DNA of 64,000 nt from Candidatus Nitronauta litoralis (lineage in GTDB: Bacteria; Nitrospinota; Nitrospinia; Nitrospinales; Nitrospinaceae), in assembly GCA_015698285.1 (NCBI GenBank), contig CP048685.1, forward strand, positions 1,302,001-1,366,000. Direction: 5' to 3'. Shown piece by piece: positions 423 through 18,159 of this stretch. The notes beneath the pieces were generated by a model, which searched no databases, had not been told where the DNA came from, and was given only the letters and a program-made list of their open reading frames with translations. How positions within the stretch are numbered: position 1 is the stretch's first letter; the number at the start of each line of letters is the position of its first letter. Both the position numbers and the translations under genes were made by a program.

Positions 423-2048
423 ATGCCAAAGAATATAGTAATTTGCTCCGACGGAACTGGAAATACCGCGAATAAAAACCGGGGCACCAACGTTTTTAAA
501 ATATTTGAAGCGGTTGATCTTCGAGCCAGAAAATTCCGGCCTCCCCAGGATAAATCAAAAGTCATTGAAAAGCAGATAACCCTTTACGATGATGGGGTAG
601 GTTCCCAAAGTTTCATCGTTTTTAAAGTCCTCGGCGGTGCCTTCGGCTGGGGTTTGAAGCGAAATGTAAAACAGCTCTACACAGAACTCGCACGAGTTTA
701 CAAAAATGGAGACAATCTCTATTTTTTCGGATTCAGCCGCGGAGCTTTTACCATCAGAACGCTCATCGGGTTTATCGCAGAATGTGGAATCCCAAAAAAA
801 TCGGTATTTAAAAACAGGGCGGAGCTCAATCAGCTAGTTGATAATGCCTACAAGCATTACCAAAGAAACTATCGATCCCTGTTAAGCAGGATTTTCTTTC
901 CGGATTGGCTGGGGAATTTTTTACCGAAGGGTCTTTTAAAACGTCTCCCCGGTTTTATTGGCAACCGGCTCCCCTTCAGTGACAACTATGACCTCAATTT
1001 TTATTATCAAACTCCTCCCATAAAATTTGTTGGAGTCTGGGACACCGTTTCCGCAGTCGGGCTGCCTTTTAAATGGGCCACAGATATGTGGAATAAATAT
1101 ATTTATCGTTTTTCTTTCAGGAATAATAATCTTTATACAGGAGTGGAAAAAGCCTGCCACGCCCTTGCGATCGACGATGAAAGACAATCGTTTCATCCCA
1201 TGTTGTGGAACGAAGACCGGACGGCTTATTCCAACCAGGTTGAAAATGGAAAGACTCTCTACCAGAAAACTGAAAAGGACTGGGAAAATGACTGGATAGA
1301 ACAGGTGTGGTTTCCTGGTGCACATTCCAATGTTGGAGGGGGCTATCCTAAACAGGGCATGTCACTGGTCAGCCTTCACTGGATGATGAAGCGTGCCTAT
1401 CATGCGGGTCTTAAATTTTTTGACAAAGACTGGGACTACATCCGTGACCACGGCAACATAACAGACAAGTTGTATAAATCCCGGTCCGGACCGGCGGTTT
1501 ATTACCGTTACCTGCCGCGCAACATTTTTAAAATCTGTAAAACCTATAATGTGGATTGCCATATCCATGAAAGCCTGAGAGATAGAATTTCCCTTGGTTC
1601 AGAAGGCTACGCCCCGGGCAACCTTCCGCCCCGGTTTTACCTGATGGGAGATGAACCGGGTACGCACGATAAATTTTTCTTCAGTAACAAGGCGTTCAGG
1701 GATACCGACCCGGAAAAAGAATCTCCCCTATGGACAAGTTTGCAGCCTTTTATCCAGCTTCGTCGGCAAGGCTATTATCTTTTCCTGTTAACCACTTTGA
1801 CGGCTATTGGTATATACATTAATAATCTGTTTGCCATAGCAAAAATCAAGCTGTCCGGAGAAAGCAACCCGGATTGTCTGGAGTATTTGAAGGTTGCCTG
1901 GGAGGAGTTCAGTACCTGGGACCTCGCCATGAGTTTTTTCAATAATTTTCTTTGGGTGGCCCTGTTATTCGCGTTTGGCATCAGCCTGTTCACCCGGCTG
2001 AAGATGCAGGGTATGCGGACAAAATTCTGGCATCAGCATAGAAAATAA
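423..2048 (+). CDS. DUF2235-family alpha/beta hydrolase with C-terminal membrane segments
   Basis: The 541-residue protein opens with CSDGTGNTA, the typical start of DUF2235 proteins, and has a nucleophile elbow GFSRGAF (GxSxG) near residue 103. A conserved GVWDTVSAVG segment follows near residue 203 and a HSNVGGGYP segment near residue 294. Members of this family include Tle1-type phospholipases secreted by type VI systems as well as many stand-alone hydrolases. Two hydrophobic segments near residues 455-475 and 510-530 suggest membrane anchoring at the C terminus. No type VI genes lie nearby, so an effector role is not supported. Lipid or ester hydrolysis at a membrane is an inference from the family. 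Confidence 0.8.
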   Translation: MPKNIVICSDGTGNTANKNRGTNVFKIFEAVDLRARKFRPPQDKSKVIEKQITLYDDGVGSQSFIVFKVLGGAFGWGLKRNVKQLYTELARVYKNGDNLYFFGFSRGAFTIRTLIGFIAECGIPKKSVFKNRAELNQLVDNAYKHYQRNYRSLLSRIFFPDWLGNFLPKGLLKRLPGFIGNRLPFSDNYDLNFYYQTPPIKFVGVWDTVSAVGLPFKWATDMWNKYIYRFSFRNNNLYTGVEKACHALAIDDERQSFHPMLWNEDRTAYSNQVENGKTLYQKTEKDWENDWIEQVWFPGAHSNVGGGYPKQGMSLVSLHWMMKRAYHAGLKFFDKDWDYIRDHGNITDKLYKSRSGPAVYYRYLPRNIFKICKTYNVDCHIHESLRDRISLGSEGYAPGNLPPRFYLMGDEPGTHDKFFFSNKAFRDTDPEKESPLWTSLQPFIQLRRQGYYLFLLTTLTAIGIYINNLFAIAKIKLSGESNPDCLEYLKVAWEEFSTWDLAMSFFNNFLWVALLFAFGISLFTRLKMQGMRTKFWHQHRK

Positions 2049-6128: not shown

Positions 6129-7283
6129 TCACAATGCACCCACCAATTGACCTGCCTGAGAGGCGTTTCCCGCCCATTTATCTTGAAGCACAATGTTCAT
6201 CTTTGCCCCTATTGGAATGACACGACCAAGAAACTCCAGGAACCACTCCTGAATATTGGGACACCCCGCGCTTCCATTTCGCCAGTCAAAATTCTTTTTA
6301 AAAAATTCGTTGAAGCGGGTCACATTGACACCGTGAATTCCATAACTGCCGGGTACCGGAGGCCCCAACCGCTTCAAACCCAGCCACCAGTGGCCGATTT
6401 CGTGATCGGGGTGCCCAAAGGGAATTTTGCGAACCCGGGTTTTCCCATTCACCTCTTCCTTTTTGTACCAGGTGGGTTCGTACACTTTGTTCTTTACCTG
6501 GTATTCACCAAGAGGTGTTTCTTCACCTTGACGCCCGAAGATCGCTTCGATTTCAAGAATCTGGTCGTTGTTATAATAAATACGGATCACACCGGTTTCA
6601 ATGATGCCAAGGAGGTACCATTTTTCCGGATCCGTATCATAACGTGCCAGTTCCTTTCCGGAAAATTTCAACGAAACGCCACCGGAAACTTTTTTATAAC
6701 TTGTGCGCGAGTCTCCGTATATCTGCTTTAAAATGTATTTCAAATTTTCTGTCACCTTGTTGTTCAAAATCATATGATCCACTGTGCTCGCCAGTTCCTG
6801 GTTTTCCTCTCGAGTCTTTTGGAGCTGGGTGGTGGTGACATTCAAATCCTTTTCGATCCGCGCTAACTCCTCCTTGGAAACAAGGCCCATTTCATTGAGC
6901 TGGGCGTACCATGCTAAATCAACTTTCTGGCGACCCGATTCTCCCAACACGATCTGGTAGATCAAAATTCCAACAAGTGCCAGGGATAGACCTGCAAGCG
7001 CCAACCCTTGAACCCATTGTTTTACCCTGTTGGAAAGGCGGTACCGGACCACTTCGCGTGCAACCTTTTTATCTTTTTCTTCCAGCGCCTGAAACTGCGC
7101 ACCTTGAAATTTCCCGTACAAACGGCTTTCGAGAGAGGAAAGGGAGCTTAAGTGAGTATGCAGTTTCCGGATGATCGCGTTCAGGTTTTCTCGCGTAGCC
7201 CGATCGTAACTCCCCTGTGGATTCTTATTGGCGATCAGGTTGTATTCTGTCAGCGATAAAATGTTGAGCTTGTTCGCGTCCAT
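6129..7283 (-). CDS. L,D-transpeptidase (YkuD) with N-terminal docking-like domain and membrane anchor
   Basis: The chosen ATG gives 384 residues; a longer frame adds 20 unconvincing residues and lacks the domain shared with the bactofilin. The first 45 residues, with the core GSYDRATRENL, match the N terminus of the bactofilin encoded at 7849-8427. A transmembrane helix follows near residues 100-125, then a coiled-coil-like stretch near 135-175. The C-terminal YkuD domain carries GIHGVN and SAGCPNI, the His and Cys of L,D-transpeptidases. The enzyme should make 3-3 crosslinks or attach proteins to peptidoglycan in the periplasm, with its N terminus in the cytoplasm. A Fic pseudogene separates it from the bactofilin gene. 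Confidence 0.85.
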   Translation of the reverse strand: MDANKLNILSLTEYNLIANKNPQGSYDRATRENLNAIIRKLHTHLSSLSSLESRLYGKFQGAQFQALEEKDKKVAREVVRYRLSNRVKQWVQGLALAGLSLALVGILIYQIVLGESGRQKVDLAWYAQLNEMGLVSKEELARIEKDLNVTTTQLQKTREENQELASTVDHMILNNKVTENLKYILKQIYGDSRTSYKKVSGGVSLKFSGKELARYDTDPEKWYLLGIIETGVIRIYYNNDQILEIEAIFGRQGEETPLGEYQVKNKVYEPTWYKKEEVNGKTRVRKIPFGHPDHEIGHWWLGLKRLGPPVPGSYGIHGVNVTRFNEFFKKNFDWRNGSAGCPNIQEWFLEFLGRVIPIGAKMNIVLQDKWAGNASQAGQLVGAL

Positions 7284-7291
7284 TGTTCTGA

Positions 7292-7745
7292 TTATAAATT
7301 GATTAAAGGTGGATAGCCAAATACATGATGTTTCCCCTCCCAATAATCCTCAAGAATTCCTGAAGCGGAAAGTTCTTTTAGATGTGAAATTGCAGTCTGT
7401 ATATGAACTTTTTGTGCTTTCCCATAAATTGTGGGAGTTGTCAAAGGCCATGTAAAGATTGGAATTGCCACATCTTGTACATTCATTTAATGATGCCTTG
7501 TTTCCAGTTCATTTTCCGTCTAAGAAAGGATGAATGGCCTCAAACTGGTAATGATCCATGGCACATTTAATAAAAGAATAGTTCCGGTTCTCATCCGGGG
7601 TGTTAACAATTTTCCCCCAGTTTTGTATCAGGCTGGCAATATCCGGAACCGAAGGCGGATTATAAATTATGTTTCCGGTTTTCGTATTCCTGATAAAATT
7701 TTTGTTGCTGACGATATCCTCTTGGGTTCTTAAAAAGCTTTTTAT
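7292..7745 (-). pseudogene. Fic/DOC-family protein, internally deleted pseudogene
   Basis: The upstream part, read on the minus strand to a stop at 7509, encodes NPPSVPDIASLIQNW and then DHYQFEAIHPFLDGK, the start of the Fic motif HPFxxGNGR. The frame stops exactly where GNGR should follow. A second fragment, 7486-7292, encodes a winged-helix-like end (TIYGKAQKVHIQTAISHL) of the type found at the C terminus of Fic proteins. Roughly 100 residues between the two, including the AMP-transferase core, are missing. It is therefore not expected to be active. It lies inside the envelope cluster, between the transpeptidase and bactofilin genes. Confidence 0.75.
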
Positions 7746-12529: not shown

Positions 12530-12832
12530 TTGAAAATGAACAGAACCGCGATATCAATTGTCATCACCTTCCTGGTTTTCTTCCTGGCCAGTCCCGCCCT
12601 TTCGAAAAGCACACACCCGATACCAGATAACACTCCTGAGAATCAATCGGAGAAAATTGAACGGAGCAGCGCATTAGACCTCGCTTATTTTCCTGTGAGT
12701 TCCACGGGAACAAATAAACCGGGGAGTGTTCAATCGACCAATCCAAAAGCCAAGAAGTTGGACCGGAAACTGATCAAAAAAATCAGAAAACTTCTAAAGA
12801 AAAAAAGACGCCACCGCCGGTGCCTGGTCTAA
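12530..12832 (+). CDS. Small secreted protein with highly basic C terminus
   Basis: A 100-residue protein with a clear signal peptide (about residues 5-25, ending SPALS). The middle is polar and disordered, and the C terminus is extremely basic (KLIKKIRKLLKKKRRHRR). The TTG start is chosen because GAGGA lies about 10 bases upstream; an ATG two codons later is the alternative. A basic tail of this kind could bind nucleic acid, lipopolysaccharide or acidic polymers, or act as an antimicrobial-like peptide, but this is speculation. Its stop codon overlaps the end of the convergent ribbon-helix-helix gene. Confidence 0.55.
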   Translation: MKMNRTAISIVITFLVFFLASPALSKSTHPIPDNTPENQSEKIERSSALDLAYFPVSSTGTNKPGSVQSTNPKAKKLDRKLIKKIRKLLKKKRRHRRCLV

Positions 12833-13086
12833 TTAGCCCACCCGCAGCCCATCCAGAATGAGGAAATAACCTCATTGCCGCTATCCAGAAACTTACCGCC
12901 CTTATCCGCTTTCTTCAGGCGTTCTTTGATGCGTTGTTCCTGCCATTCAAACACTTCAAGATAGTTATCAACAGCTTCCGTAATAAGCCAGTTGCGGGAA
13001 CGGTCAAAACTGGAAGCAATATGATCCAGTTTTTTCTGGGTTTCCCTGGAAAGGCGAACGGTAACATTTCCCATATTTTGACTCAT
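12829..13086 (-). CDS. Ribbon-helix-helix DNA-binding protein, antitoxin-like
   Basis: An 85-residue protein whose start VTVRLSRETQKKLDHIASS and SRNWLITEAVDNYLEVFEW match the CopG/Arc-type ribbon-helix-helix fold used by many type II antitoxins. The C-terminal 35 residues would normally bind a RelE/ParE toxin. No toxin gene follows: downstream on this strand the next sequence is the convergent secreted-protein gene. It is thus an orphan antitoxin or a stand-alone regulator. A second methionine two codons upstream is also possible. Confidence 0.7.
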   Translation of the reverse strand: MSQNMGNVTVRLSRETQKKLDHIASSFDRSRNWLITEAVDNYLEVFEWQEQRIKERLKKADKGGKFLDSGNEVISSFWMGCGWAN

Positions 13087-13175
13087 AAACAATCATTCCT
13101 GATATAAAACTTTATAATTATCGTATTCAAACAAAGACAAGTTTCCCAGGCATTAACGAATCCTGAATAGGGCGT

Positions 13176-13415: not shown

Positions 13416-13448
13416 TTGACACAAATATCACTTGTGACCATAATGGTC
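13416..13448 (+). promoter_or_regulatory. Sigma-70-type promoter with palindromic operator over the -10 box
   Basis: TTGACA at 13416-13421 matches the -35 consensus. After a 17-base spacer, CATAAT at 13439-13444 matches five of six bases of the -10 consensus. The perfect palindrome GACCATAATGGTC at 13436-13448 covers the -10 box. A degenerate copy, ACCCATTAAGGTCATAT, lies just before the start codon at 13480. The downstream protein has an N-terminal HTH of the type that binds such palindromes, so autorepression is likely. Confidence 0.75.
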
Positions 13449-13479
13449 ATATCATTATAATTTTACCCATTAAGGTCAT

Positions 13480-16400
13480 ATGATTAAAAGGGGTGGGGCT
13501 CAAAAATCGAACGACGAATTATCTCCAGAGCGAATCCGGGCAATTCGTGAATCCCTCGGTCTTTCTCAAGATGTAGCTGGAGAAATTCTTGGTGGAGGCC
13601 CCAGAGCTTTCACAAAGTATGAGGCAGGTTCTATTAAGCCCGCTGCTGCCGTTATTAATCTTTTGAAGATTCTAGAGGTCAATCCAAAAGCCTTGGAAAC
13701 CTTAACTGGCAATGAAACCAAACCAAAGAAAATAAGTGGACGATCTCCCTTCGAAGTTAAGGGTAAGCATGTTGAAGAGTTATCTGCTGACCAATTGGTA
13801 AATTTGACAAGACGATTATTGGCGGCGGAGGCCTTTTCCTATTCTCTTCCTTCACCAACTATTCATGTACCGGAAAATATAAACGCCCCAGATGGAGGGG
13901 AAGACGCACGGATTAAATGGGAAGGAAGCCCAGAAAAAACTCTATACCTCTCCTGCCGTTTAAATCAATTTCAAATGAAGTCAGGGAAAATAGAAAACAA
14001 AAAGGCAGGCAAAGAGGTAATAAATAAAAAAGGCCAAATCAAAGAGATGGTTCGTTCTGTTTTGGAGGCGGGCGGAACCTACACTCTGCTTTGCGCGCAT
14101 GGGTATGTCCACCAGGAAACTCAAAAAAAAGAAACTGCAATTAGAAAGACTCTAACTGAGGCTGGTTTGTCATTTAAAGATCACCAAGTTCGATTTTTTG
14201 ATTCCAGCATGATTGCTGATTGGGTAAATACACATCCTTCTGTAGCCATATGGCTACTGGAGAAAACGGAAATCAGTTCTATTGGAAATTTTCGGTCCTT
14301 GGAGTATTGGAGTAATAGTCCAGAACATAGTATTGAATTTTTCGAGGACTCAAGGCTGAAAGAGGTACAAAGTAAGCTCCTTCCATCAATAATAAAACCA
14401 AAAAATGGAATGAGGGTTCATGGCCCTTCGGGAACTGGAAAATCGCGACTTATATTGGAGGCTTTAAGAGGCGAAGTAATAATTGACGGCACTAGCTCAA
14501 CTTCAATAAAAGATTTAGCCCTTTATGTAGATGAGCAATCAGCAGGTACACATTCAATTAAACACGCAATACAGAACCTTGCTGATTCATCTACACGAGC
14601 CATAGTTGTTGTAGATAGTTGCGATGTGCAGACCCATCGTCATTTGTTAAACCTGATTCAAAGAGAAGAAAGCAAACTATCCCTCATCACCATTGATGAT
14701 GAACCTCCTTTTATAGAGAAGGATGATACGGTCCTTGTGGGCCCGGCAGATAAGTTAGTAATTGATAAAATTCTAAAAACGGTAGCTCCAAATTTACGGG
14801 ACGAAGACCAAAGAAGGTTTGTAAAGTTTTCTCAGGGTTTCCCCAGAGTCGCAACTTTACTGGGGGAGTCTTGGACAAATGAGAAGCCAATTTTAGATGC
14901 ATTTAGTGAAATTGCGAAAATAATTATTATAGGCCGGGAAAAATTTGAGCCCGATCTCCTTTTGTATGGCGCTCAACTTCTGAGTATTTTTGGTGTGTTA
15001 TATGAAAGTGAAATTGAGGTTGTGGCTGATTTAAGTTCACGTTTGGATGCCGAAGGTCTTCGTTCTGCAATTTATAAATTAGAGGCGCGTGGTATTGTTC
15101 AAAAAAAAGGCAAAGCTTTATTGATTCAACCCCGCCCTGTTGCATTGTGTCTTGCTGAATTGAAGTGGTCTGAGTGGGGGAGAGACGAATGGGAAGACAT
15201 GATAGCTGGGCCATTATCTGAAGAATTAAAAAAAAGGGCATTTAGCCAATTGGCTCTTCTGAACACAACGGATCTGGGTATACAGATTGGAAAGTATTTG
15301 TTAAGGGCGGGTGGGCCCTTAGATTCCATAGAAAATCTATCTAAAACTGGAGCAGCGGAAATCTTTTCATGTTTGGCAGAGGTAGATGCTGAAGCTGCAG
15401 TTTCACTCCTTGAAAGATCTTTAGGAAGAGTGTCTCCTCAAAAAATCAAAATTTTAGATGGGGATGCCCGAAGACATATTGTGTGGGCTCTCCAAAAAAT
15501 TAGTTTCTGCACAGAAGTTTTTGAAAGAGGTGCCAAGATTATGTTGGACTTGGCAATAAATGAAAGTGAAAGTTGGGACAATTATGCTACAGGAAATTTT
15601 AAGTCCTTTTTCCCTGTTCATTTAGGAAATACGGAGGGAAATGCTGAAATGCGTTTTCGCGTCATTGATGATGCGCTTAACACAGATAATGAAAGCCAGC
15701 TTCTCATGGTTGTGGAAGCACTTATTTCAGGTTCTGAAACGGATTTTTTTTCTAGGGGAGTTGGAGCGGAAACACATGGGACCCGTCCTGTGAAAGAGCC
15801 TTGGCGTCCAAATACAGGGGAAGAATTTGTAAATTATATTGAAGGCTGTTGTAACCGGCTCATTGATTTATCTAAAAGAAAAGATGAAGTTGGAGCCGCT
15901 GCAAAACAAGGATTGGGAAATAAATTTCGATATTTAGCAAATAAGCAGTTCCTTAAAGTAGTGAAAAGGGCTGTAGAGGAAGTTGTTTCGGTTCATGGGG
16001 CATACTGGCCTGAAGCATATGAGAGCTTGGGAGATGTTCTTGTTCACGATATCGAAGGGCATTCAGCCGAATATATTAAGGAAATACAAGCTATCCTAAA
16101 AACTTTCACCCCCAAATCTTTAGAAGACCGCCTTCGTATCCTAGTAATAGAAATGCCATGGGATTACCCTTGCGATGAAAAGCTTAGCTTTGAACAAAGG
16201 GAAAAAAAGCAAAAAGAGGCTGTTGAAGATCTTGTAGGCGATTATCTCAAGACCCCCGAAGATTTGAAAAAAGCATTAGCAAAGATCAATTGTCTGCCAA
16301 AAGAAAAACGCCGAGGCCAATTACGAATGGCTTGGGTTTTTGGCTATCAAATTTCCAGAAAGTCTGAAAACCCTGAAAAGTGGCTTAATTTGATCACTAA

Positions 16401-17541
16401 AAGTTTGCTCGATATTAAAGCTGAGGACAGAGATTTTGATCTATTAGCAGGCTATTTACGGGGGCTATACCAGAAAAATCCTCAAGCCGTTGAAGAATTT
16501 AAACTGAATGCATCGGGTTCCGCAGATTTTGCCCCCGCTTTGCCGTCTATTTGTTTGAGAATTGGAATTCAAGCGGAAGATATTCCTATGGTTTCTGGCG
16601 CTTTGAAAGCTGAGTTGATTACCCCTTGGCATCTAATGCAATGGAGCTGCGGGGGCGTTTTGGCAGAATTATCGCCTGCGGATGTGTCACCCCTATTTGA
16701 TCTGTTAATCACAATAAGTGAAGAGGGATTTTGTGTCGCAATGGATCTCCTGGGAATGTATGCCTACGGTAGGCCTGAAATTTTAGAAGAGTTTATCCCG
16801 CAGATCAAACTGGCCGCAGAAAATTCTGGATTAAAATCAAAAGATGGACATAGGTCTCAAATGGACGAGCACCATTTCCAGGATATTATGAAATGGATAT
16901 TGCGAAAAGGTAGGGGAAATGTGGATGCTAGATCAATTGCGTCCATTCTGTCGAATCAGCTTGTTAATTTGGTAAATAATGGAAATGAAAGGTTGATCAA
17001 ACCATTGGTGCCTTTGCTGCTCTCAGATTTTCCTGAAATTTCGTGGCAAATTATTGGCCCGGCCATAACTTCAGATATAAGAGTGGCGTGGAAATTTGAA
17101 CACCTGCTAGGGGATAAATATTCATTTCGAGAAAGTAAGAACCCTCCAATCTTAAGTCTCCCAGAAGAAACTCTTTTTTCCTGGTGCCAAGCAAACAAAA
17201 AAACAGCACCGAGCCTTGTTGCCGCAATTGTCCCAGTCCTTACAACCCAAAACCCTAAGGAAACAGATATCGAAGTTCATCCAGTCATGAGAAAGCTCTT
17301 AGATGAATTTGGAGATCAGAAAGAAGTATTGGAAGGTATAGAAAGAAATATTTTCACTTATGGTTGGAGTGGTTCAAGGACTACCTATTTCCAGCTTTAT
17401 TTAATTCCATTTAAAGAACTAAAGGACCACCCAAGGAAAGAGGTTCGTTTTTGGGCTGAGAGGATGATAAATATCTTGAGGCATCAAAAAAACCAAGCGC
17501 GGGATGAAGACGAGGAGCAGGAAGCTTTTTGGTCTGTCTGA
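13480..17541 (+). CDS. HTH / PD-(D/E)XK-like nuclease / P-loop NTPase / helical-repeat protein, probable antiphage defence
   Basis: A 1353-residue protein in an AT-rich segment. Residues 14-66 form an XRE/MqsA-like HTH (IRAIRESLGLSQDVAGEILG). Residues about 120-265 resemble Mrr-like PD-(D/E)XK nucleases: PDGGEDARIKW with candidate metal ligand D142, and FQMK with Q165 and K167, a QxK variant. A P-loop GPSGTGKS lies at 315-322 and Walker B IVVVD at 375-379. A winged-helix-like region and about 800 residues of helical repeats follow, as in STAND-type sensors. The architecture suggests a single-protein defence system in which the helical part senses and the NTPase licenses DNA cleavage. A chromosomal regulator is the alternative. 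Confidence 0.7.
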   Translation: MIKRGGAQKSNDELSPERIRAIRESLGLSQDVAGEILGGGPRAFTKYEAGSIKPAAAVINLLKILEVNPKALETLTGNETKPKKISGRSPFEVKGKHVEELSADQLVNLTRRLLAAEAFSYSLPSPTIHVPENINAPDGGEDARIKWEGSPEKTLYLSCRLNQFQMKSGKIENKKAGKEVINKKGQIKEMVRSVLEAGGTYTLLCAHGYVHQETQKKETAIRKTLTEAGLSFKDHQVRFFDSSMIADWVNTHPSVAIWLLEKTEISSIGNFRSLEYWSNSPEHSIEFFEDSRLKEVQSKLLPSIIKPKNGMRVHGPSGTGKSRLILEALRGEVIIDGTSSTSIKDLALYVDEQSAGTHSIKHAIQNLADSSTRAIVVVDSCDVQTHRHLLNLIQREESKLSLITIDDEPPFIEKDDTVLVGPADKLVIDKILKTVAPNLRDEDQRRFVKFSQGFPRVATLLGESWTNEKPILDAFSEIAKIIIIGREKFEPDLLLYGAQLLSIFGVLYESEIEVVADLSSRLDAEGLRSAIYKLEARGIVQKKGKALLIQPRPVALCLAELKWSEWGRDEWEDMIAGPLSEELKKRAFSQLALLNTTDLGIQIGKYLLRAGGPLDSIENLSKTGAAEIFSCLAEVDAEAAVSLLERSLGRVSPQKIKILDGDARRHIVWALQKISFCTEVFERGAKIMLDLAINESESWDNYATGNFKSFFPVHLGNTEGNAEMRFRVIDDALNTDNESQLLMVVEALISGSETDFFSRGVGAETHGTRPVKEPWRPNTGEEFVNYIEGCCNRLIDLSKRKDEVGAAAKQGLGNKFRYLANKQFLKVVKRAVEEVVSVHGAYWPEAYESLGDVLVHDIEGHSAEYIKEIQAILKTFTPKSLEDRLRILVIEMPWDYPCDEKLSFEQREKKQKEAVEDLVGDYLKTPEDLKKALAKINCLPKEKRRGQLRMAWVFGYQISRKSENPEKWLNLITKSLLDIKAEDRDFDLLAGYLRGLYQKNPQAVEEFKLNASGSADFAPALPSICLRIGIQAEDIPMVSGALKAELITPWHLMQWSCGGVLAELSPADVSPLFDLLITISEEGFCVAMDLLGMYAYGRPEILEEFIPQIKLAAENSGLKSKDGHRSQMDEHHFQDIMKWILRKGRGNVDARSIASILSNQLVNLVNNGNERLIKPLVPLLLSDFPEISWQIIGPAITSDIRVAWKFEHLLGDKYSFRESKNPPILSLPEETLFSWCQANKKTAPSLVAAIVPVLTTQNPKETDIEVHPVMRKLLDEFGDQKEVLEGIERNIFTYGWSGSRTTYFQLYLIPFKELKDHPRKEVRFWAERMINILRHQKNQARDEDEEQEAFWSV

Positions 17542-17572
17542 TGGAATAAAGCTGGGAAAAATTAGAAATTTT

Positions 17573-18010
17573 ATGACATTTAGAACTGACATTAAAACCT
17601 GTATGAAAGATTGTATCTTGGCAATACTTTGGAATCGTCAAGAAATTTATGATTTTTTTCAAGACCATTCATGCACCTCAAAAGAGTTGAAACTCATAAA
17701 AAGTTTTAAGGATCAATCTATATCCAGAAGAAAAATGGTCGACTTGGTTTTCTCTGCTCTTTCAAAAAGGGATGATGGGGGGTGTAACCAATTTCAAAAA
17801 ATGTTTAGATCCTTGACAGAATGGTCGCATTTTGACGAATACTATTTTGATAAATTACATAAATTAGATCGTAATACAGCAGTGCGGCTTATTCGAAAAT
17901 TAAAATCCTTTTCTTCAATCTGCCACCAAAAAAAAGGTTCAGGATATTCCCTAATGTCATTTCTGCAATTAATTCCAAAATATCGCTTCATAATTGATGC
18001 ATTCATATAA
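17573..18010 (+). CDS. Small protein resembling the N-terminal domain of some restriction endonucleases
   Basis: A 145-residue helical protein from the ATG at 17573; an ATG at 17504 would overlap the upstream gene by 38 bases. Segments such as LWNRQEIYDFFQDH, SRRKMVDLVFSAL and LTEWSHFDEYYFDKL followed by LDRNTA resemble, from memory, the roughly 100-residue helical domain that precedes the nuclease in a group of restriction-endonuclease-like defence proteins. No nuclease domain follows, so this is a solo or truncated version. It lies immediately downstream of the HTH-nuclease-NTPase gene on the same strand and is probably its partner. No clear ribosome binding site is visible. Confidence 0.5.
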   Translation: MTFRTDIKTCMKDCILAILWNRQEIYDFFQDHSCTSKELKLIKSFKDQSISRRKMVDLVFSALSKRDDGGCNQFQKMFRSLTEWSHFDEYYFDKLHKLDRNTAVRLIRKLKSFSSICHQKKGSGYSLMSFLQLIPKYRFIIDAFI

Positions 18011-18051
18011 AAAGGTTTCCAATAAACAATTCGAAAATCCCAAAAACAAAA

Positions 18052-18084: not shown

Positions 18085-18159
18085 TGGCTCCGGAGACAGG
18101 ATTCGAACCTGTAACCTTACGGTTAACAGCCGTCTGCGCTACCATTGCGCCACTCCGGA
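18085..18159 (-). tRNA. tRNA-Asn (GTT)
   Basis: The minus strand folds into a full cloverleaf. The acceptor TCCGGAG pairs with CTCCGGA, followed by a G discriminator and an encoded CCA. The anticodon loop CTGTTAACC gives anticodon GTT, and the T arm contains GGTTCGAATCC. The terminator at 18052-18078 lies directly downstream. It marks the right edge of the AT-rich defence locus, but no duplicated tRNA end was seen on the far side. Confidence 0.95.

Follow-up and report, generated by a model that had tools for sequence, protein, structure and literature searches.

How bacteria keep their lethal immune nucleases in check is not yet settled, and the known solutions are mostly separate regulator genes. 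In this work we address it through a window of 64,000 nucleotides from Candidatus Nitronauta litoralis (contig CP048685.1, positions 1,302,001 to 1,366,000 of the forward strand), in which an open reading frame (ORF) at positions 13480–17541 (+) codes for a homologue of component A of the anti-phage system PD-λ-4. PD-λ-4 belongs to the set that Vassallo et al. 2022 (PMC9519451) recovered by functional selection, the λ-4 attribution being given in a review (PMC10952713) whose table entry, in the accessible part of that source, lists a P-loop NTPase only. In the founding-type locus of E. coli the A gene is followed by the B gene, side by side. The second described relative is the E. coli antitoxin MqsA, which reads ACCT-N3-AGGT palindromes through residues N97 and R101 (PMC4901048). 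We propose that the protein of the window is an anti-phage effector of the PD-lambda-4A family, encoded by a single gene that came in by horizontal transfer, and that it doubles as the repressor of this gene, a reading to which we assign, on sequence comparison, a probability of about 0.75. The control element thus seems to be part of the effector itself, and the comparison of homologues pinpoints the exact DNA site on which it would act.

The frame is intact, opens with ATG and codes for 1353 residues. From residue 91 to residue 1348 the protein matches the PADLOC profile PD-Lambda-4_A (PDLC03991) with E=3e-86, covering profile positions 4–1279 of 1283; the E. coli copy fits this model from end to end with 2532 bits, and the two proteins align, again starting at residue 91 of ours, with ~25% identity over 767 residues (E=3e-41). 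The original prediction, made from the letters alone, had read the gene as a single-gene antiphage sensor and had called for a profile search against defence-system databases. That search gave the match described above, and the predicted function gains support from homology to an experimentally selected anti-phage component and from relatives that lie in islands and plasmids beside defence genes. Every element named in the prediction is present: a helix-turn-helix (HTH), a nuclease-like region with a QxK motif, the P-loop, the Walker B motif and the C-terminal helices. Its labels for the first two hold and can be refined, since the HTH is specifically of the MqsA type and the nuclease is predicted to be Mrr-like.

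The HTH occupies residues 8–75 (13501–13704, +). It matches the MqsA model TIGR03830 with E=2e-17 (63.0 bits against a cut-off of 61.8) and PF15731 with E=4e-13 (50 against 30 bits), in the latter case over profile positions 68–129 of 131 and without the Zn-binding half. A search of the PDB found MqsA 3fmy (E=5e-11), with 40% identity between the HTH and the DNA-binding half of MqsA, and Foldseek placed the modelled HTH on 3gn5 with a root-mean-square deviation of 0.9 Å. Since the Zn-binding half is absent and no match to MqsR was found among the neighbouring ORFs scanned, we rejected the possibility that the protein is an MqsA antitoxin of a toxin–antitoxin pair. In the alignment the positions of N97 and R101 are taken by R42 and K46, and the DNA-binding specificity is therefore predicted to have changed.

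Just upstream of the start codon lies the best sigma-70-like promoter of the region, TTGACA-17-CATAAT (13416–13444, +), with 11 of 12 consensus matches. Because the promoter scan alone stayed at chance level (11 sites found, 11.0 expected), we argue for this promoter from its position and conservation. Its −10 box is overlapped by a perfect 15-bp palindrome, TGACCATAATGGTCA (13435–13449), the putative operator 1, and 29 bp past it comes a weaker operator-like direct repeat with 83% identity, TACCCATTAAGGTCA (13464–13478), which ends two bases ahead of the start codon. The core ACCATNATGGT retains the ACC-N5-GGT spacing of the E. coli MqsA sites. Each of the five homologues fused to the MqsA-type HTH has it 17–45 nt before the start, namely the window gene and those of Luteibacter (L010), Proteobacteria (L011), Rhodobacterales (L012) and Rhodospirillales (L013). 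None of the 22 HTH-less homologues that we examined has this core, nor does any unrelated locus in the set of 118 compared, in which L060–L063 had been retrieved with a longer form of this pattern. The full palindrome occurs once in the whole genome, at the gene's own promoter. The combination of an antitoxin-type HTH and a matching promoter site makes it very probable that the protein represses the gene that encodes it, and autorepression through the HTH and the promoter palindrome is strongly supported by these comparisons. The suggestion in the original prediction of an operator-binding, self-limiting HTH is thereby borne out at the level of sequence, the promoter-overlapping palindrome being kept only alongside the MqsA-type HTH. 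An alternative would be that the HTH is not, or not only, an autorepressor and instead guides the nuclease to certain DNA targets or serves as a dimerisation module, the palindrome being bound by another regulator. Its attachment to a nuclease would fit DNA targeting, and so would the altered specificity expected from the exchange of N97 and R101 for R42 and K46, but we regard this explanation as unlikely because the palindrome follows the fused HTH exactly (5/5 against 0/22), because a second, unrelated HTH in the family is accompanied by a second palindrome, and because of the single genomic occurrence of the full site.

This second case emerged from a tree of 30 homologues, built with the HTH region left out of the alignment. 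The homologues with the MqsA-type HTH form one clade (100/100 support). Four others (L042, L044, L045 and L047) form a second clade with 100/100 support, which groups with the HTH-less L040 and L048 and whose members are fused to an HTH_37 domain unrelated to the MqsA HTH (two members scanned). All four carry upstream the palindrome TTATATY-N6-RATATAA, found nowhere else among 120 loci. Two clades, each with its own HTH type and its own palindrome, imply that PD-λ-4A proteins acquired a DNA-binding domain of the antitoxin type on two or more occasions, each time together with a putative operator. Repeated uptake of regulatory HTHs fits this pattern better than a chance fusion. On a Xanthomonas plasmid (L023), the frame chosen at 6839–7603, a stretch without gene annotation in the record, starts with a DNA-binding domain of the LexA type (PF01726, E=2e-16), and this fusion could imply control by DNA damage. 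A palindrome, CGCCGTA-N3-TACGGCG, lies 54 nt upstream of this frame. On a Rhizobium plasmid, the gene at L016:3816–7934, which immediately precedes that of an HTH-less PD-lambda-4A homologue, codes for a protein of 1372 residues with an XRE HTH of the control-protein type.

For the PD-λ-4A family our analysis points to a catalytic domain, which we predict to be a Mrr-like nuclease with QxK. The region in question comprises residues 91–265 (13750–14274, +). In an alignment of 16 divergent homologues D138, G139, G140, D142, Q165, K167, K321 and D379 are invariant, a list that includes the three residues (D142, K167 and K321) that had been proposed as mutation targets. The D-GG-D...QxK core is kept in 34 of 34 homologues, with the order and spacing of the Mrr core. 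When profile hidden Markov models of this region and of Mrr_cat were compared, the latter made from 25 domains, most of them with DGGIDG...QAK, the two motifs aligned with each other at a score of 42.5 (probability 87%), against 19.7 for the best of 60 column-shuffled controls and 12.5 for reversed Mrr. A PDB profile search with the nuclease region gave no meaningful match, and a Pfam scan of the region in the 34 homologues returned isolated weak matches only (Mrr_cat 0.018, DUF4365 0.043). Taken as a whole, the comparison indicates that residues 91–265 contain a Mrr-like nuclease core of the PD-(D/E)xK type with QxK.

The rest of the protein has the features of a STAND NTPase followed by a long superhelix. 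The P-loop GPSGTGKS, residues 315–322 (14422–14445, +), has G315, G318, G320 and K321 invariant, and the Walker B motif IVVVD, residues 375–379 (14602–14616, +), ends in the invariant D379. A winged-helix region is present as well, and a weak model of the NTPase region had its nearest folds among STAND-clade ATPases, with Foldseek matches to 2fna, 2qen, the plant NLR RPP1, NLRP9 and Avs4, all of them weak (E 6e-3 to 4e-2). Residues 561–1353 (15160–17538, +) were modelled by AlphaFold2 as helices throughout, with a mean predicted local distance difference test (pLDDT) of 75, and their best structural matches, importin 13 and transportin 3 among them, are HEAT superhelices; the roughly 800 residues of helical repeats that had been predicted correspond to these about 790 residues. 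The NCBIfam model Avs3a matched with E=0.13 over 67 residues, and we do not place the protein in the Avs family.

Several observations weigh against the reading of a self-repressing, single-gene nuclease. AlphaFold2, run on residues 1–640 with only five sequences, gave residues 91–265 a pLDDT of mostly 22–60 and did not resolve the nuclease fold. Structure prediction, which had been proposed as a check, thus delivered the helical C-terminus but not the nuclease, and because of this low confidence the nuclease assignment rests on the motifs and the profile comparison. The palindrome of the window is not significant on its own, a palindrome as good being reached in 21 of 200 shuffles, and the case for an operator therefore lies in its conservation; this amounts to three independent lineages, because L010, L011 and L013 are closely related. 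Another homologue, L039, with a distinct and more distant MqsA-like HTH, shows no ACCATNATGGT-type operator upstream. Finally, the E. coli system has B beside A, and the PD-Lambda-4_B profile had no match anywhere in the genome of Ca. N. litoralis. This absence leads us to describe the gene as a single-gene variant, a homologue of component A and not a complete PD-λ-4 system. A complete system, with the second component elsewhere or in the small ORF that overlaps the 3΄ end of the gene (17504–18010, +), would agree with the adjacent A and B genes of the founding system, but it is largely refuted and retains hardly any probability: besides the missing B match, the downstream ORF bears no similarity to B, was rejected as such, and is instead a cut-down gene of the Mrr_cat type, and one E. 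coli A homologue, which lies next to an AbiP2-like reverse transcriptase, also has no B beside it.

This downstream ORF is a remnant: of a defence gene of the restriction-endonuclease-like kind it keeps the N-terminal half, and the Mrr_cat half is missing. Over residues 22–139 it is 49% identical to plasmid relatives, and the intact relative, a protein of 305 aa with a C-terminal Mrr_cat domain, is plasmid-borne in Delftia, beside AbiEii and Qat. A remnant next door, together with an L013 homologue that is split by a frameshift, could suggest that the whole locus is a passenger in the genome, decayed or silent, that no longer serves any function; we hold this to be very unlikely, given that the 1353-codon frame is intact and that catalytic residues, promoter and operator are all in place.

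Acquisition by transfer, which the original prediction had proposed from the AT-richness of the locus, agrees with its GC content of about 0.40–0.41 against 0.48–0.52 in the flanks, with the absence of the gene from all 76 other genomes of the phylum that were searched, and with the mobile context of its relatives. The nearest relatives are found in Pseudomonadota, where homologues, mostly HTH-less, occur in ~2% of the sampled genomes of the class of the Rhodobacterales relative and in 3.5% of those of the class of the Luteibacter relative. Homologues confined to core, non-island contexts would have spoken against a defence role; relatives lie instead in islands and on plasmids beside known defence genes, such as the Mza genes and an integrase (L012), Piwi and a CBASS phospholipase (L017) or an Abi gene (L026), and TniQ is found near L011. 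A scan of viral contigs with the single 1353-aa protein found no relatives, and a phage origin was rejected, the only match in phages being of the size of the HTH. The right border of the variable segment is marked by a tRNA-Asn gene (18085–18159, −): the recR–tRNA-Asn block is kept in relatives, and homology to both congeners ends at 18041/18042, just beyond the tRNA and terminator. At the left edge the closest congener departs directly after rsmI (about 10507). At this left end of the window's variable segment, and next to rsmI, that congener (L117, 1878–2657) has an HNH endonuclease gene (PF13391). A RelB/CopG-type ribbon-helix-helix gene that lies upstream of the defence gene (12829–13092, −) has no recognised toxin partner beside it, and similar DNA is located elsewhere in two relatives. 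Far from this segment, at 423–2048 (+), the window contains an ORF of 541 aa whose product may resemble DUF2235 hydrolases.

How might such a protein work? In the uninfected cell the HTH, probably as a dimer, would bind the operator, so that little of the toxic nuclease is made. Once a phage infects, the C-terminal superhelix may sense a phage product, after which the NTPase would drive oligomerisation and the Mrr-like domains would cut DNA in the manner of Avs and other STAND nucleases, the outcome being cell death or direct restriction. Engagement or oligomerisation may also relieve the repression. As a more tentative and rather doubtful generalisation, STAND-type defence nucleases may have repeatedly captured antitoxin-type HTHs to become one-molecule switches, with self-repression at rest followed by trigger-driven release of the HTH and derepression. 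If this were true, sensing, killing and feed-forward expression would be coupled within one polypeptide.

An effector that takes charge of its own regulation has a parallel in AcrIF24, a dual anti-CRISPR and autoregulator (PMC9638941), as far as the accessible part of that paper describes it; the likeness is one of function, and AcrIF24 is a counter-defence protein of phages, whereas here we deal with a predicted host defence nuclease. With Avs and the bacterial NLR-like STAND ATPases the protein shares the order of nuclease, STAND NTPase and long helical repeats, besides the weak structural match to Avs4, although no Avs profile is among its PADLOC matches. MqsA (E. coli YgiT) resembles it in the HTH, in the ACC-N5-GGT geometry of the operator and in having two sites at the promoter, and differs from this 1353-aa protein in its Zn-binding, toxin-neutralising half, in its MqsR partner and in its base-reading residues, R42 and K46 standing in their place here; the core of the sites differs too, AACCT in those of MqsA against ACCAT at our gene. 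The closest likeness is with PD-lambda-4 component A, to which the homology extends from residue 91 onward and includes the DGG.D...QxK core, the P-loop and the C-terminal helices, while the N-terminal MqsA-type HTH, the putative promoter operator and the lack of PD-lambda-4_B in the genome set our protein apart. As far as the openly accessible journal literature shows, three points appear to be new: the autorepressor built into the effector, the independent and repeated emergence of this arrangement along with operators that match, and the assignment of the nuclease to the Mrr-like type. The PD-λ-4A family was already known, and the built-in autorepressor appears to be the part that this locus adds to it.

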